Source: a virus. From it: a DNA stretch of 64,000 nt. The position numbers were made by a program, and so were the translations under genes. Below the pieces are notes generated by a model. That model saw nothing but the letters and a program-made list of their open reading frames with translations, was not told the DNA's origin and searched no databases. The stretch is from IMG/VR virus record IMGVR_UViG_3300032050_000044, positions 1-64,000 of that record. The stretch is one strand, 5' to 3'. The stretch's first letter is position 1. Each line of letters opens with the position of its first letter. Below are positions 705-13,561 of this stretch, piece by piece.

Positions 705-1901
705 ATGTGTATGGATAAGTCGTATATAAAAGATTTAGTTCAGAAAATACTGAATAAAGAGTTTTCAAATACAAATAAAAGAAGAGTTGTCGATTATCAT
801 GATCGATTAAACTTTGCTTGTCCGTATTGTGGTGACTCCAAGAATCAATATAAAAAAAGAGGTAATCTTTACTTTAATAGATTAATTTTTATTTGTTTTA
901 ACTGTGATAAGAAAGCTTCATTTGATAAAATGTGTAAACATTTTAATGAACAAGTTGATCCTGATAAAAAATTAGAAATGATTGAACACTTAAATAGTGT
1001 TATGACTTATTCTGATTATGAGTCAAATGTATCAGATGCTAAGTTTGAAAACTTAATAAACTTAGAAGATTTGGAAAAAGTATTTTCAATGGATCTAACA
1101 CCTATATCAGATTTTAAACCTATACAGGTTAATAGTGGTGTTTATAAATACTTAGTTGGTCGTGGAATTGATCCATACTATCATAAAAACATTTATCAAG
1201 CCAAATGGTGGAAAAATGATGATGAAAGTGAGTGGATAATTGTTATGTTAAATCGAAGAGATGATAAGGTTCTTGGTATTCAATTAAGAAACTTAAAATC
1301 TGGTAAACGTAGGATGTTTAAAATTTTTAACTATGAAAATTTACTTGAGTGGGTTAATTTAATAAAAGAAGAACCTATTGAAATTGATATAAATGAGATG
1401 GTTATTTATAATAAGTTGTCTTATTATTTTAATATATTGAATATTGATTTTACTGAGAAAGTAACAGTATTTGAGGGATATTTAGATTCTCTATTCTATC
1501 CTAATTCTATTGGTTTGGTAGGTGTTAATACTGATTATAAATTAATTGAAAGTAGTGGAATGGAACTGCAATACTTTTTTGATAATGATGAGGCTGGATT
1601 TATAAAATCTGAACAAAAGATAAAAGATGGATTTCCGGTATTTCTTTGGAAAAAACTATTTGAAGATATTGTAGATAAAAAGAAATCTGATGACCCTTAT
1701 AAGTTATTACATAGAATATCCAAAGTTAAAGATATTAATAAATTAGCTGAACTTGTTCCAAATCCATATAAAAAATTAGAGCTATTTAACTTTTTTAGTC
1801 ACGATGAATTAGATATCAAATGGATACCTAAGAGAATTAAAAAGTTAAAATCTGAAGATGTTGATTATAATAAAAAATTCAATAACATAAAATATTTATG
1901 A
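705..1901 (+). CDS. 61: DNA primase, T4 gp61-like (zinc finger plus Toprim)
   Basis: Predicted primase that makes RNA primers at the replication fork. The N-terminus has a CPYCGDS...CFNC zinc finger (Cys about residues 39, 42, 64, 67), as in DnaG/gp61 primases. A Toprim-like core follows: VTVFEGYLDSLF carries the conserved Glu and LQYFFDNDEAG the DxD-type motif. The length of about 398 residues is somewhat above T4 gp61 (342). I chose the ATG at 705 (711 is equally possible) rather than the upstream TTG at 687, because the usual A-rich leader precedes it and the finger domain begins soon after. Product confidence is high; the exact start is less sure. Confidence 0.85.
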   Translation: MCMDKSYIKDLVQKILNKEFSNTNKRRVVDYHDRLNFACPYCGDSKNQYKKRGNLYFNRLIFICFNCDKKASFDKMCKHFNEQVDPDKKLEMIEHLNSVMTYSDYESNVSDAKFENLINLEDLEKVFSMDLTPISDFKPIQVNSGVYKYLVGRGIDPYYHKNIYQAKWWKNDDESEWIIVMLNRRDDKVLGIQLRNLKSGKRRMFKIFNYENLLEWVNLIKEEPIEIDINEMVIYNKLSYYFNILNIDFTEKVTVFEGYLDSLFYPNSIGLVGVNTDYKLIESSGMELQYFFDNDEAGFIKSEQKIKDGFPVFLWKKLFEDIVDKKKSDDPYKLLHRISKVKDINKLAELVPNPYKKLELFNFFSHDELDIKWIPKRIKKLKSEDVDYNKKFNNIKYL

Positions 1902-1934
1902 TTTTTCCATTTTATATATAAAAATAAAAACTAA

Positions 1935-5169: not shown

Positions 5170-5850
5170 ATGAAAAAATGTACAAAATGTAAAAAAGAAA
5201 AAGAAATATCAGATTTTCATAAACATAAAAAAACAAAGGATGGTCTATGTTGTAGATGTAAAGAATGTTCTTTAGAAGATAAGAGAGAATATTATAAAAA
5301 TAATAAAGATAAGGTAAAGGATGGTGTTAAAAAATATAGAGAAGAAAATATTGATAAAGTAAAAGAACGTGTTAAAAATCATTACGAAAAAAATAGAGAT
5401 TCTTTATTGGAATATAAGAAAAAATACCACATTGATAATGATGAAAGAAGAAGAGATTTAAATTATAAGTGGCGAGAGAAAAATAAAGATAAGATTAGAG
5501 AATATGCTAAAGATTATATTTCAGAAAAGAGGAAGAATGATATACTTTTTAAGATAAAAGATAGTATATCTGGTTTAATACGTAGTTCGATTGTGAGTAA
5601 GGGATATAAAAAGTTGTATAGAACTGAATCTATATTAGGTTGTACAATAGATGAATTTAAAGATTATATACAAAGTAAATTCTTAGATGGTATGACCTGG
5701 GAAAATCATGGTGAGTGGCATTTGGATCATAAAACTCCGGTTTCATGGGCTATAAGTGAATCTGAAGTATATGAGTTAAACCATTATAAAAATTTTCAGC
5801 CTCTTTGGAAGACTGAAAATTTAATTAAGGGTAATAGATGGTCTGATTAG
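5170..5850 (+). CDS. HNH homing endonuclease (next to split DNA polymerase)
   Basis: The N-terminal zinc-ribbon-like part has four Cys pairs (CTKCKKEKE...CCRCKEC). A long Lys/Asn-rich DNA-binding region follows, and then a C-terminal HNH nuclease: WHLDHKTPVS, later NHYKNFQPLW and ENLIKGNR. This is the common layout of free-standing phage HNH endonucleases. It converges on the polymerase C-terminal gene, and the two stop codons overlap by 3 nt. Together with the endonuclease at 7395 it brackets that gene, which suggests that endonuclease insertion split the polymerase. Confidence 0.85.
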   Translation: MKKCTKCKKEKEISDFHKHKKTKDGLCCRCKECSLEDKREYYKNNKDKVKDGVKKYREENIDKVKERVKNHYEKNRDSLLEYKKKYHIDNDERRRDLNYKWREKNKDKIREYAKDYISEKRKNDILFKIKDSISGLIRSSIVSKGYKKLYRTESILGCTIDEFKDYIQSKFLDGMTWENHGEWHLDHKTPVSWAISESEVYELNHYKNFQPLWKTENLIKGNRWSD

Positions 5851-7178
5851 TATTTCATACCAAATCCTGAAAATATGTCTAATACAACTGATAATCTTTC
5901 TGTAATCTCTGGCATTCCTAATGGTTCAATAATTGAGTTTATAGGTGATAGAATTGCTTTATAAAATTGAGTTGTATAATCGACTTGCGGAGCGAACTCG
6001 ATTGGATAAGAACCTCTAATATAAGCAAAGATATCACCGTTTGATTTATTCTTACAATAGTAATACTTAATCTTAGTACCTGACTTAATCATCTCATACT
6101 TATCAGCAAATTGCTTATTAGTGTGTAATAAGTAGTTGTAAAGAGCTGATGCTTTAACAGCAAAGTGAGCTCCTGTTACAAACTCTAATGGTAAAGCTTT
6201 ATCATTAATAACTTTAGTATCATAGTTAGAACAAGAAGATTGCATTGCAATATCATCAATATCAGCTAACTCAAACTCTTTTCTTAAATCTTTAACTAAT
6301 TTTAATAACTCTTTTATGTTAAATGTATTTGAGTTTTCAAATAAGTATTTAACGATGTTGATAATTTTCTCTCTTGCAAAAAGAGGTGTTGATGATCTAA
6401 CTAACTCAACTCCTTTAGGGAATAAGTAAGTTAATCTATCATAAGGAATACCATCTTCAAATACAACGTGTTGAATATATTTCTTTTTAGCGATTGATAT
6501 AATTGATTCTGAAACTCGTTCTAACTCAAAGTCTTCTTTATTTTCAACTCCAAAAGATCCGGCGTATTCTTCTAAACAAGTCTTGAAATAATCAGCATAT
6601 CTAAAATGATCAATACCATGTATATAATCCAATTCGTTAGACCAATTCCAAATGGGTTCACAAGTAAGAGATCCAAAATTTATTAGTTTATTCAAATCTC
6701 TATTTTTAGCAAAATGTCCGTCAATGATTATCATTTCATAATCGGTTGATAATAAATTTTCAAAGTCATTATACTTATCTACATATCCTAAACAATTAGG
6801 GTTATTAAAATTGACATCTTCTTTAGATAATACAATAAACTTTTTGTCAATACTTTCAAGATTACTTTTATTAATAAAGATATTTTTCCATTCAGAGTGT
6901 TCAATTGCTGGTAAGAAAGAAACAAATAATGAGTCAGTATCTGCATAAATACTTACCGGTTCTGAATTAGGTATTTGAGTTACATTTCTAATTCCTAATT
7001 TATTATGTAGTTCAAAGTCTAAGTGCCATTGATTATACCAATAGTCTTCATTAACTCTATCCATTGTCTTTGTTAAATCTCTACCTTGTGCAGTGATGGT
7101 ACCAGCCACATGATTGTTAAACAAGATAAAGTATGGTGTTGCGAATGCTCCGTAAGATCCATTCAAAACTAATTTTAG
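5847..7178 (-). CDS. 43: B-family DNA polymerase, C-terminal subunit (gp43B-like), main reading frame
   Basis: Carries the polymerase palm and thumb: motif B KLVLNGSYGAF at the very start, motif C YADTDSLFV (catalytic Asp pair) about 75 residues later, and a KKKYIQHVV segment matching the KKRY element of T4 gp43. The C-terminal end, PLGMPEITERLSVVLDIF, resembles the T4 gp43 tail that contacts the clamp. The exonuclease domain and motif A are absent from the window, so the N-terminal half is encoded elsewhere. The frame begins at CTA 7178 immediately after a TGA and has no normal start; a TTG at 7166 lies inside motif B and would delete its Lys. The preceding coding segment is 7210-7317, across a 40-nt gap. 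If joined, the product has about 476 residues. Confidence 0.85.
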   Translation of the reverse strand, partial: LKLVLNGSYGAFATPYFILFNNHVAGTITAQGRDLTKTMDRVNEDYWYNQWHLDFELHNKLGIRNVTQIPNSEPVSIYADTDSLFVSFLPAIEHSEWKNIFINKSNLESIDKKFIVLSKEDVNFNNPNCLGYVDKYNDFENLLSTDYEMIIIDGHFAKNRDLNKLINFGSLTCEPIWNWSNELDYIHGIDHFRYADYFKTCLEEYAGSFGVENKEDFELERVSESIISIAKKKYIQHVVFEDGIPYDRLTYLFPKGVELVRSSTPLFAREKIINIVKYLFENSNTFNIKELLKLVKDLRKEFELADIDDIAMQSSCSNYDTKVINDKALPLEFVTGAHFAVKASALYNYLLHTNKQFADKYEMIKSGTKIKYYYCKNKSNGDIFAYIRGSYPIEFAPQVDYTTQFYKAILSPINSIIEPLGMPEITERLSVVLDIFSGFGMKY

Positions 7179-7215
7179 TCATCACCCCCTCAAAATAAAT
7201 TTGAGGGGGTTAAAA
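7176..7215 (-). other. 40-nt hairpin interruption in polymerase: candidate translational bypass site
   Basis: On the minus strand the segment separates CTT (7218-7216) from AAA (7175-7173). It holds a TAA in the upstream frame, an 11-bp stem ACCCCCTCAAA / TTTGAGGGGGT with loop TTTAT, a TGA in the downstream frame, and ends in CTA. Removing exactly these 40 nt gives ...NALQLAL-KLVLNGSYG, restoring the Q-x3-K-x3-N spacing of polymerase motif B. The Leu codons CTT and CTA would be take-off and landing. A 13-bp perfect inverted repeat (7218-7230 with 7255-7267) lies immediately upstream. It is too short for an intron, and no U-tract follows the hairpin on either strand, so it is not a normal terminator. 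Confidence 0.7.
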
Positions 7216-7317
7216 AAGAGCGAGTTGAAGTGCGTTGTAGTAGTCTACCTCTTTCTTCAACTCGCTCGCTTTATTTTTTAATGACTCTAGTTCTTTAATT
7301 TTTTCTTCCCTAGTCAT
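7210..7317 (-). CDS. 43: Short 5' coding segment of polymerase C-terminal subunit
   Basis: Encodes 35 residues ending ...EVDYYNALQLALF then TAA. The Lys/Glu-rich helix and the final YNALQLAL match the region just upstream of motif B in B-family polymerases, where a helix leads into Q-x3-K-x3-N-x-x-Y-G. It starts at ATG 7317 (MTREEKIKEL), with an in-frame TAA upstream at 7341, so the subunit truly begins here and not further left. The continuation is in another frame 40 nt downstream. Its upstream leader carries a small AGTCC/GGACT hairpin (7341-7356) and it is divergent from the endonuclease gene at 7395. Confidence 0.75.
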   Translation of the reverse strand: MTREEKIKELESLKNKASELKKEVDYYNALQLALF

Positions 7318-7394
7318 ATTTTTTAATTTTTTTTCAATTTAGTCCTAATGGGGACTTATAGTTTTTATATATAATAAAAATTTATATAGTTTAT

Positions 7395-8498
7395 ATGATT
7401 AAAGAAGACAAAGTTTTAGTTAAAATAAATATTAGAAATAAATCTCACTATTCTGAGTTGGGATATTTAATTGATAATGAAATAATTGTTGATGTTGAAC
7501 ATTTACCAAGTGGATCTAAAACCAAAGTAACTGCTATATGTGATATATGTAAATCCGAAAGTTCAATATCATATTCAAAATATCTAATAAATATGAATAG
7601 GAATAACAAAGGATATTATTCTTGCTTTAATTGTAAAAATCATGTTAAAGAAAAGACATGTTTAGAGAAGTATGGTGTTAGATCATATTCGATGACAAGT
7701 GAATTTAAATCAACTGAAAGTGAAAAATGGAAAGGTATTAAAAAGGGATCCGAAAAAGGTAAAAAGACTATGATGGAAAGATATGGTGTTGATTCCTATT
7801 TTAAGACTGATATAATGCGTATTAAAAATCGAGAGTGGATGTCATCAGATGAATTTCGTAATAAGTCAAAGGAGACTTTAATTAGTAGATATGGAGTGGA
7901 CTCTTATTCAAAAACAGATGAGTTTAAAAGATTATTATTTGATAATAAAGATATTATCTTAGATAAGATTAAGAGTACTTTTAAAGAAAAATATGGAAAT
8001 GAATATTTATCAAAGACTGATTATTGGAAGTCAATATTTAATAATAAAAAGAGTGAGATGGTCGATAAAACAAAAAATACTTGTTTAGAGAAGTATGGTG
8101 TTGATAATGTCAGTAAGGTTGAGTCTATTAAAAGTAAAGTTAAATTAACTAAGGAATTAAATGGACTTATTATACCAGAAAGTGAATTAAGTGATTGGGT
8201 TACTTATAAAAAAGTAGTTAGAAACACAACAAAATTAAATAAAAAGTTTTTATACGAAAATTGGGATGGTTTTGACTACTATGATAATGAGTTTATAAAA
8301 GGATATGCTTCATATACACATACGCATAGATTTTACCCTACAATAGATCATAAAATTTCTGTTTATTATGGATATGTTAATAAAATAGATCCAATTACAA
8401 TTGGATCTATTGATAATCTTTGTATTACGAAAAGATTTATTAATTCTATAAAAAATTCTTTAATTGAAGAAGAATTTATCTCAAAGTATCAACTATAA
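7395..8498 (+). CDS. Homing endonuclease with EKYGV repeats
   Basis: 367 residues. After an N-terminal zinc-finger-like region (CDICKS...CFNCK) there are five spaced repeats of the type CLEKYGVxxxSxTxExK (about residues 93-250), typical of a class of phage endonucleases annotated DUF7487-like. The C-terminal domain contains THRFYPTIDHKISVYYG and IDNLCITKRFINSIKN, an HNH-like active-site pattern. A TTTTTATATATAA element lies about 20 nt upstream. It is divergent from the split polymerase gene and may be the element responsible for the split. It overlaps the end of the next convergent gene by 23 nt. Confidence 0.75.
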   Translation: MIKEDKVLVKINIRNKSHYSELGYLIDNEIIVDVEHLPSGSKTKVTAICDICKSESSISYSKYLINMNRNNKGYYSCFNCKNHVKEKTCLEKYGVRSYSMTSEFKSTESEKWKGIKKGSEKGKKTMMERYGVDSYFKTDIMRIKNREWMSSDEFRNKSKETLISRYGVDSYSKTDEFKRLLFDNKDIILDKIKSTFKEKYGNEYLSKTDYWKSIFNNKKSEMVDKTKNTCLEKYGVDNVSKVESIKSKVKLTKELNGLIIPESELSDWVTYKKVVRNTTKLNKKFLYENWDGFDYYDNEFIKGYASYTHTHRFYPTIDHKISVYYGYVNKIDPITIGSIDNLCITKRFINSIKNSLIEEEFISKYQL

Positions 8499-8832
8499 CT
8501 GTTGGAGTTTTAGTTGTACTTGTATCTAATTTTTCTTTTGTTTTTGGTTTAAAGAACTTAACTTCTTTTTTTGGTTGAACAATAATAACTGGTTTTGTTA
8601 AACTATCATTCTCCTCTTTTAATTCTTTTATTCTACAAGTGTTATCACTAATTTCTTGTAAATTAGAAAGGTTTTCATCTTCTAAACCATTAATAGTTTC
8701 TCTTTGATAATTTAAAAAATAAAGTAAAACACCAATAACAATTATTAGTATTGTTATTACTCTATTCTTTTTATCAATAGCCGCATTTTTATTATAATAT
8801 GGTCTTCGTTGGTATCTATTATTCATCTTCAT
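8476..8832 (-). CDS. Single-pass membrane protein with coiled coil
   Basis: 118 residues: a basic, Tyr/Arg/Asn-rich N-terminus, one membrane segment (about 26-43), a Glu/Asn-rich coiled-coil stretch (about 44-80), then a Lys/Thr-rich tail. The topology (cytoplasmic N-terminus, periplasmic coiled coil) is compatible with an i-spanin or an anchoring protein, but no family is recognised. It lies downstream of the clamp gene on the same strand. Confidence 0.55.
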   Translation of the reverse strand: MKMNNRYQRRPYYNKNAAIDKKNRVITILIIVIGVLLYFLNYQRETINGLEDENLSNLQEISDNTCRIKELKEENDSLTKPVIIVQPKKEVKFFKPKTKEKLDTSTTKTPTVIVDTLR

Positions 8833-12549: not shown

Positions 12550-12699
12550 ATGAAAGCTAAAGAAATAATGGAGAAATATAAAATTACTAGAAATACATTG
12601 AGTAATTGGGTTAAAAGAGGATGGATAGAAGTTGAGATTTTACCATCCGGTAGATATATCTATCATGAGGTAAAAATTATTAAAAATAATGAGTGTTAA
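12550..12699 (+). CDS. Small helix-turn-helix protein (MerR/excisionase-like)
   Basis: 49 residues starting MKAKEIMEKYKITRNTL. The sequence KEIMEKYKITRNTLSNWVKR, followed by a short wing with PSGRYIY, is the compact HTH of MerR/excisionase-type proteins. The stop overlaps the start of the downstream endonuclease gene by 11 nt, so the two are co-translated. It could regulate the endonuclease or give it DNA specificity as a separate subunit. Confidence 0.65.
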   Translation: MKAKEIMEKYKITRNTLSNWVKRGWIEVEILPSGRYIYHEVKIIKNNEC

Positions 12700-13561
12700 A
12701 TTCGATAATAATGATTTTATAAGAGAATCTATAAAAATACATGGTGATAAATATGACTATTCTTTAGTTAATTATACTAAATCATCTGAAAAGATTATTA
12801 TTAATTGTATGATACATAGACCTTTTGAACAAAGAGCATCTAATCATCTCAGAGGGCGAGGTTGTTATTTTTGTAAAAAATCTAAAAAATATGATTCTGA
12901 TAAATTTATAGAACTATCTAAGAAAGTACATGGTGATAAATATTTATACAAAAATACAATATATACTGGATCTCATAAAAATGTTGTAATAACTTGTAGA
13001 ATACACGGTGATTTTAACCAATCACCAACTAATCATCTAAGTGGTAAAGGTTGTTCTTTTTGTGCCACTGAAAAAAATAGATTAAGTCAAGACTATTTTA
13101 TCGAAAGATGTAATTTGGTGCATAACTATAAATATGATTATAGTTTGGTTCGGTATAAAAATTTAAGGTCAAAAATATTAATAATTTGCAAACATCATGA
13201 TTCATTTGAACAAAGAGCTAAAAATCATTTATTTGGTCAAGGTTGTCCGGAATGTGGTGATAATTTTGGTGTAAAGGAAAATAAATGGTTAGATTCTCTA
13301 AATATATCAGAGAGACAAGTTAGAATAGGTGAGTATATAGTTGATGGATATGATCCTGAAACTAAAACTGTTTATGAATTCAATGGTGATTTTTGGCATG
13401 GCAATCCAGATGTTTTTAAACAAAATGATTATAATAATGTTTTGAAAAAGACATTTGGTGAATTATATAAAAAAACATTAAATAAAGAAAATAATCTAGT
13501 TAAGATGGGTTTTAATATTATCTCTATTTGGGAAAATGATTTTAATAAACTATTTTTGTGA
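12689..13561 (+). CDS. Homing-type endonuclease: DUF723-like zinc repeats plus Vsr-like nuclease
   Basis: 290 residues. Three tandem repeats of about 60 residues (starts near 8, 72 and 135) carry HGDKYDYSLVNY, then C-x-x-H and HL-x-G-x-GCxxC, the DUF723-type zinc module. The C-terminal domain has IVDGYDPETKTVYEFNGDFW followed by HGNP, then ISIWENDF near the end, the D...E-x-(N/D)...W-x-x-D pattern of Vsr/EDxHD-type homing nucleases. It is coupled to the HTH gene just upstream. No split target gene is obvious on either side. Confidence 0.75.
   Translation: MSVKFDNNDFIRESIKIHGDKYDYSLVNYTKSSEKIIINCMIHRPFEQRASNHLRGRGCYFCKKSKKYDSDKFIELSKKVHGDKYLYKNTIYTGSHKNVVITCRIHGDFNQSPTNHLSGKGCSFCATEKNRLSQDYFIERCNLVHNYKYDYSLVRYKNLRSKILIICKHHDSFEQRAKNHLFGQGCPECGDNFGVKENKWLDSLNISERQVRIGEYIVDGYDPETKTVYEFNGDFWHGNPDVFKQNDYNNVLKKTFGELYKKTLNKENNLVKMGFNIISIWENDFNKLFL

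Follow-up and report, generated by a model that had tools for sequence, protein, structure and literature searches.

Our comparative data indicated that a DNA polymerase gene in a group of giant phages is repeatedly interrupted, within a catalytic motif, by a hairpin of 36-48 bases over which ribosomes most likely jump. The example described here lies in a window of 64,000 nucleotides (nt), positions 1 to 64,000 of the 101,185-base virus record IMGVR_UViG_3300032050_000044, where 40 noncoding nt (7215-7176) cut the gene for the C-terminal half (C-half) of a PolB DNA polymerase after codon 34, just before motif B. We favor, with a probability of roughly 0.6, the reading that this insert is a programmed translational-bypass element, mobile as a cassette with the EKYG-repeat endonuclease encoded next to it. 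The evidence is comparative throughout (sequences, trees, and predicted folds of metagenomic data), and about 32 interrupted and 21 uninterrupted lineages were compared, near-identical contigs being collapsed by our own judgement. The parts of the interrupted gene are the following.

5847-7317, minus strand: interrupted gene for the PolB C-terminal half, gp43B-like (ATG at 7317, stop at 5847-5849; identified by Pfam and PHROG matches and the alignment of relatives)
7216-7317, minus strand: first coding segment, 34 codons, MTREEKIKELESLKNKASELKKEVDYYNALQLAL
7216-7218, minus strand: candidate take-off codon CTT (Leu)
7176-7215, minus strand: 40-nt noncoding insert TTTTAACCCCCTCAAATTTATTTTGAGGGGGTGATGACTA, missing from uninterrupted relatives
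7210-7212, minus strand: in-frame stop TAA, the second codon past take-off
7184-7210, minus strand: hairpin P3, ACCCCCTCAAA / TTTGAGGGGGT, inside the insert
7176-7178, minus strand: candidate landing codon CTA (Leu), after which decoding would resume at AAA (7175-7173)
5847-7175, minus strand: remaining 442 codons (second coding segment), beginning with motif B and its lysine (KLVLNGSYG) and running to the gene end

In reading order on the minus strand, MTREEKIKELESLKNKASELKKEVDYYNALQLAL (7317-7216) is followed by the 40 nt and then by KLVLNGSYGAF (from 7175). The hairpin gap that the sequence-only reading had noticed, without interpreting it, was located at 7184-7210, within the insert, which lies between QLAL and KLVLNG. 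In uninterrupted relatives the C-half begins MTKEEK...YYNALQLALKLVLNGSYGAF or MTKEEK...KKEVDYYNALQLALKLVLNGSYGAF and continues unbroken, with no gap; such genes are found in the GenBank huge phages LR756500, LR756501, LR756502, LR756504, and LR745206. Comparison with them shows that the C-half is intact as a protein and that what breaks up its gene is a short insert, structured and noncoding. The only CCCCC-N5..24-GGGGG hairpin of the 101-kb record is the one in the insert, a hairpin of this kind lies within the polymerase gene in each of eight other interrupted records, and a search of three uninterrupted genomes (436-642 kb) returned none; because it is unique in its record, recurrent in interrupted polymerase genes, and missing from uninterrupted genomes, the hairpin is not a chance occurrence. 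One extra match, in G004, falls at a gene end, and we did not include it among the elements. No further copy of the insert was detected in the 101-kb record. The folded region had a z score of -8.8, whereas uninterrupted relatives scored between about 0 and -1.3, and every insert among the approximately 32 lineages holds a hairpin.

The metagenomic origin of all these data would suit the view that the interruptions reflect pseudogene decay or faulty assembly, a view we find scarcely credible given the purifying pattern beyond the insert, the compensating changes in predicted helices described below, and the number of lineages (approximately 32). The ratio of nonsynonymous to synonymous change (dN/dS) beyond the insert was 0.03-0.08 in most interrupted pairs, with 0.28 in the pair L068/L071. 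Synonymous change thus far exceeds amino acid change there, which indicates that the interrupted gene still works as a polymerase gene. Moreover, an identical sequence was found in L005 and L011, which are assemblies of other metagenomes. A genuine gene end at the insert, with termination and re-initiation yielding the C-half as two proteins, appears very improbable as well: a possible start codon for the second piece exists in the window, TTG at 7166, but relatives do not conserve it (they have CTG, CTA, CTT, and others), and it lies past the conserved lysine of motif B, which would be lost.

The positions and sequences of the inserts argue for a translational mechanism. Inserts occur at six codon boundaries within the 11 codons A-L-K-L-V-L-N-G-S-Y-G, namely after A, L, V, G, S, and Y, and their lengths (36-48 nt) cover all three phases, so that readthrough or a single fixed frameshift could be rejected. 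At five of the six sites (Leu, Ala, Val, Ser, and Gly), the take-off and landing codons are synonymous and differ at most at the wobble position, the pairs being CTT (once CTG)/CTA, GCT/GCT or GCA, GTT/GTT or GTA, TCT/TCA, and GGT/GGT, whereas other triplets in the same gaps match at a rate of 0-17%. The pair in the window, CTT/CTA, is synonymous and non-identical. Among 31 elements, 27 carry an in-frame stop as codon one or two of the gap (28 of 32 when L194 is included), versus 0 and 1 in frames +1 and +2 and a mean of 5.7 (maximum, 15) after shuffling of the 31 elements; it is the second codon in the window and the first in L028, L034, L035, and L110. The spacer between the take-off codon and P3, read off the sequences, is 5-7 nt and nearly always 6 nt. 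The codon pairs, the early stop, and the spacer are what a peptidyl-tRNA would require for release and re-pairing, and they have no obvious use in splicing. The peptide encoded upstream of the gap is similar in uninterrupted genes.

In genes interrupted at the Leu and Ala sites, three helices (P1, P2, and P3) were predicted, P3 being the GC-rich hairpin of the insert itself. The strands of the other two in the window are as follows.

7255-7267, minus strand: 5' strand of helix P2, GAGCGAGTTGAAG, coding
7218-7230, minus strand: 3' strand of helix P2, CTTCAACTCGCTC, coding and ending at the take-off codon
7281-7286, minus strand: 5' strand of helix P1, AGTCAT, coding
7177-7182, minus strand: 3' strand of helix P1, ATGACT, overlapping the landing codon

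P2 is backed by covariation, with 90.8% of cells paired versus 28-44% when the strands were slid and with double changes at 6 pairs. Leu- and Ala-site genes retain 11.4 of its 13 pairs, versus 5.9 in uninterrupted genes and 5.5 in genes interrupted elsewhere (p 3e-7, with lineages treated as independent). P1, which pairs bases of the landing codon with coding sequence about 65 nt upstream, was paired in 76% versus at most 47% when slid, and was supported in most Leu- and Ala-site genes. The uninterrupted gene of L031, sister to an interrupted one, has 10 of the 13 P2 pairs (in the first 110 nt of the gene), possibly as a relic of a lost insert.

Taken together, these features suggest how the window's insert might be passed. 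A ribosome would read codons 1-34 and reach CTT with Leu-tRNA in the P site, where P2 re-forming behind it, together with P3 and the stop codon ahead, would favor release of the mRNA. The peptidyl-tRNA would then skip 37 nt and re-pair on the synonymous CTA, which P1 would keep near the take-off site, and decoding would restart at AAA, restoring motif B (KLVLNGSYG). Bypassing is probably the mechanism at work and the best supported of those considered.

Several observations weigh against this reading. At the Tyr site (8 lineages), where a Tyr landing codon was sought at the resume position, none was found, the triplet there being AAC, AGC, TAA, CAA, or GAC. The early stop is missing in four elements (L024, L067, L068, and L071), and in the window, as in all elements whose stop comes one codon later, the A site at take-off would hold an ordinary sense codon, unlike in gene 60 of phage T4. 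P2 and P1 are limited to Leu and Ala sites, several of which have a weak P1. Since element types may be related by transfer, the elements may share ancestry, and the independent matched-codon events may possibly number only five. Minimal pairing at landing can reportedly suffice for bypassing, to go by the title of one study on bypassing, and this might cover the Tyr site.

Because the Tyr-site inserts lack a matched landing codon, removal from the RNA stays the main rival to bypassing. As a tiny mRNA intron, the 36-48 nt would be excised before translation, either through a self-acting structure or through the joint action of a nuclease and an RNA ligase; we regard this as unlikely. In its favor, the predicted helices bring the ends of the insert together, several Tyr-site inserts fold with both ends near each other, and the phase of the gap is free. 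However, neither the synonymous codon pairs at five sites nor the frame-0 stop after take-off has an obvious role in splicing, every site can be read as a codon boundary, and an Rfam scan of the window matched no family. The length is far below that of the self-splicing intron classes known to us, none of which, to our knowledge, is anywhere near as small. Group I and group II introns in particular were rejected, as no catalytic core was matched by Rfam in the window and the insert has just 40 nt. The related proposal that the inserts form a set of mobile mini-introns of 36-48 nt, self-acting or cut and ligated, fits the Tyr-site elements best and seems rather unlikely to hold; we know of no description of such a splicing class in bacteria or their phages.

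Returning to the bypass cassette, its proposed mobility rests on the gene directly upstream, one of two endonuclease genes that flank the polymerase half-gene, as the sequence-only reading had noted.

7395-8498, plus strand: EKYG-repeat endonuclease of the DUF7487 family (PHROG annotation, homing endonuclease; C-terminus DHK...NLCITKR.INS.K), candidate mobility partner
5170-5850, plus strand: EndoVII-like HNH endonuclease (PHROG 1035, E 7e-22)

The EKYG gene diverges from the 5' end of the polymerase gene, 77 nt upstream of its ATG. A gene of this kind lies directly upstream and divergent in 19 of 32 interrupted lineages versus 0 of 21 uninterrupted ones (Fisher 3.8e-6, a value that assumes independent lineages, although these phages are related). 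In the endonuclease tree, two polymerase-adjacent EKYG groups were associated mainly with the upstream insert sites (A, L, and V) and the downstream sites (G, S, and Y), respectively. We propose that the EKYG endonuclease would nick or cut uninterrupted motif-B DNA, that the insert would destroy this target, and that repair would co-convert the endonuclease gene and the insert into the recipient. The hairpin may instead be bypassed or spliced with no tie to the endonuclease, the two merely favoring the same spot; 13 of the 32 interrupted lineages indeed have no adjoining EKYG gene, among them L053, where a GIY-YIG-like gene takes its place. The skewed distribution of the EKYG gene and the way endonuclease groups track insert position, with few exceptions, make this distinctly improbable. 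Those exceptions, L025 (a Tyr-site gene in the upstream-site group) and L067 (a Leu-site gene in the downstream-site group), do count against the cassette. So does the indirect assignment of an activity and a target to the EKYG endonuclease, for which motifs, position, and family names were the guides, since no solved relative was found by sequence or fold and its structural model (predicted template modeling score, 0.37) had no meaningful PDB match. GIY-YIG-like genes occupy the upstream, divergent place of the EKYG gene in interrupted L053 (-983..-219 from motif B) and uninterrupted L044 (-942..-181), the gene of L044 being unrelated to the EKYG one.

Gain and loss of the inserts can be followed among close relatives. 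On the polymerase tree, the label "uninterrupted" requires 16 changes, as many as shuffled labels do, and well-supported branches force 13 of these. L022 and L024 have near-identical polymerases with inserts at different sites, and close DNA identity between them starts at the insert region. Identity between L018 (empty) and L021 (filled, with endonuclease) is about 95% along most of the sequence; the two differ in the endonuclease gene, the insert, and a locally less similar stretch (84%) just before the insert. Such comparisons show that inserts have been gained and lost among closely related phages, often with the endonuclease gene.

The endonucleases are a separate matter from the division of the polymerase into two genes. 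As the sequence-only reading stated, the window holds the PolB C-terminal half only (Pfam DNA_pol_B; PHROG DNA polymerase, E 1.3e-42), with an upstream stop (TAA at 7341-7339) that shares its frame with the ATG at 7317. A Pfam hidden Markov model search of the 101-kb record for an exonuclease or N-terminal domain found none, and tblastn with seven N-terminal halves (N-halves) did not find one there either (best E, 0.03). As the record is a fragment and its closest annotated relatives, the uncultured huge phages LR745206 and LR756502 (635-642 kb), are about 640 kb long, its own N-half probably lies outside it. No relatives were found among plasmids and GTDB genomes. In relatives, where sought, the N-half has a gene of its own, which encodes about 500-520 amino acids, carries motif A (DFASLYP), ends at the fingers tip, and lies about 40-134 kb from the C-half (linear coordinates, in records holding both); distant relatives such as the 735-kb LR756501 also share the split. 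In all 21 uninterrupted lineages, the C-half gene has no adjoining EKYG endonuclease. Because these lineages share the split without it, a condition that the sequence-only reading had itself named as refuting, the endonucleases did not make the split, and the A/B split is ancestral. What the EKYG endonuclease accompanies is the hairpin insert and not the polymerase split. The parallel that had been drawn to T4-like phages is apt in general, but gp43A/gp43B is the wrong counterpart: a split of that type through endonuclease insertion was rejected, the relatives being split with no EKYG gene and with the N-half tens of kilobases away. Polymerase motif C (YADTD^S) was seen to hold intein-like C-terminal ends (...THTFIANDILVHN directly before S) in L035, L054, L060, and L068, just upstream of locus position 6001, so that a second kind of insert is present in the same polymerase gene.

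The HNH gene and the polymerase gene converge, their stops overlapping at 5847-5850, and the HNH gene is not tied to the insert; no homologue was found at the polymerase 3' end in the loci searched other than L025. There, a homologue (65%) has the same convergent 3' place (+1295..1924 from the polymerase match). Elsewhere in the window, a possible endonuclease-type gene with DUF4379/DUF723 treble-clef repeats (12689-13561) has related copies elsewhere in relatives, and a small gene upstream of the polymerase (8476-8832) has a weak Rz-like spanin match (PHROG 739, E 3e-4), which is odd beside a replication gene.

Programmed bypassing was considered apparently unique to T4 gene 60 in a 2010 review (PMC3014915), and a 2016 review added few others, in yeast mitochondria and, as a likely case, in a Streptomyces phage (PMC5009743). 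The resemblance to gene 60 and its endonuclease MobA (gene 39/mobA/gene 60) covers the parts as well as their order, namely a split replication gene, an endonuclease gene of HNH type close by, and a gap near the start of the second gene (PMC3014915, PMC2988022, PMC5009743), at codon 34 here versus 46 in gene 60 and of about 40-50 nt in both. Gene 60 and the inserts also have in common a stop near take-off, a stem-loop 5' of take-off, a hairpin in the gap, and a G-rich tract a few nucleotides ahead of landing. Unlike gene 60, the inserts interrupt another gene in other phages, involve several amino acids and six sites with shorter gaps, have a three-helix structure at Leu and Ala sites and a stop mostly one codon later, and are polymorphic across many lineages, being known here from sequences alone; unlike in the gene 60/MobA case, the split of the polymerase is ancestral and not made by an endonuclease. 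The byp elements of Magnusiomyces capitatus mitochondria are likewise short inserts skipped in translation, some with imperfect codon matching (PMC5009743), but they are mitochondrial, number 81 instances, and are bypassed in a manner seemingly independent of mRNA context, whereas the phage inserts occur once per record examined and are strongly structured. In Aeromonas phages 25 and 44RR, PolB is likewise encoded by two cooperating genes (gp43A/gp43B), with an endonuclease near the junction in phage 25 (PMC2988022); here, in contrast, the halves lie tens of kilobases apart, the split is shared by endonuclease-free relatives, and it is the C-half gene itself that the insert interrupts. Group I introns paired with homing endonucleases offer a further likeness in their insertion at a conserved catalytic motif and their endonuclease partner, but 40 nt leave no room for an intron core, and Rfam gave no match. 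We found no earlier report of such polymerase inserts in the open-licence literature, and reports elsewhere are possible.

Because gene callers would split such genes, elements of this kind are easily overlooked. The approximately 32 natural variants, which occupy six codon positions, some with an endonuclease and some lacking it, form together with 21 empty sites in the same gene a natural series in which the rules for take-off, landing, stop codon, and mRNA helices are therefore directly testable. Collectively, they support the view that endonuclease-resistance cassettes are the form in which bypass elements originate and spread.

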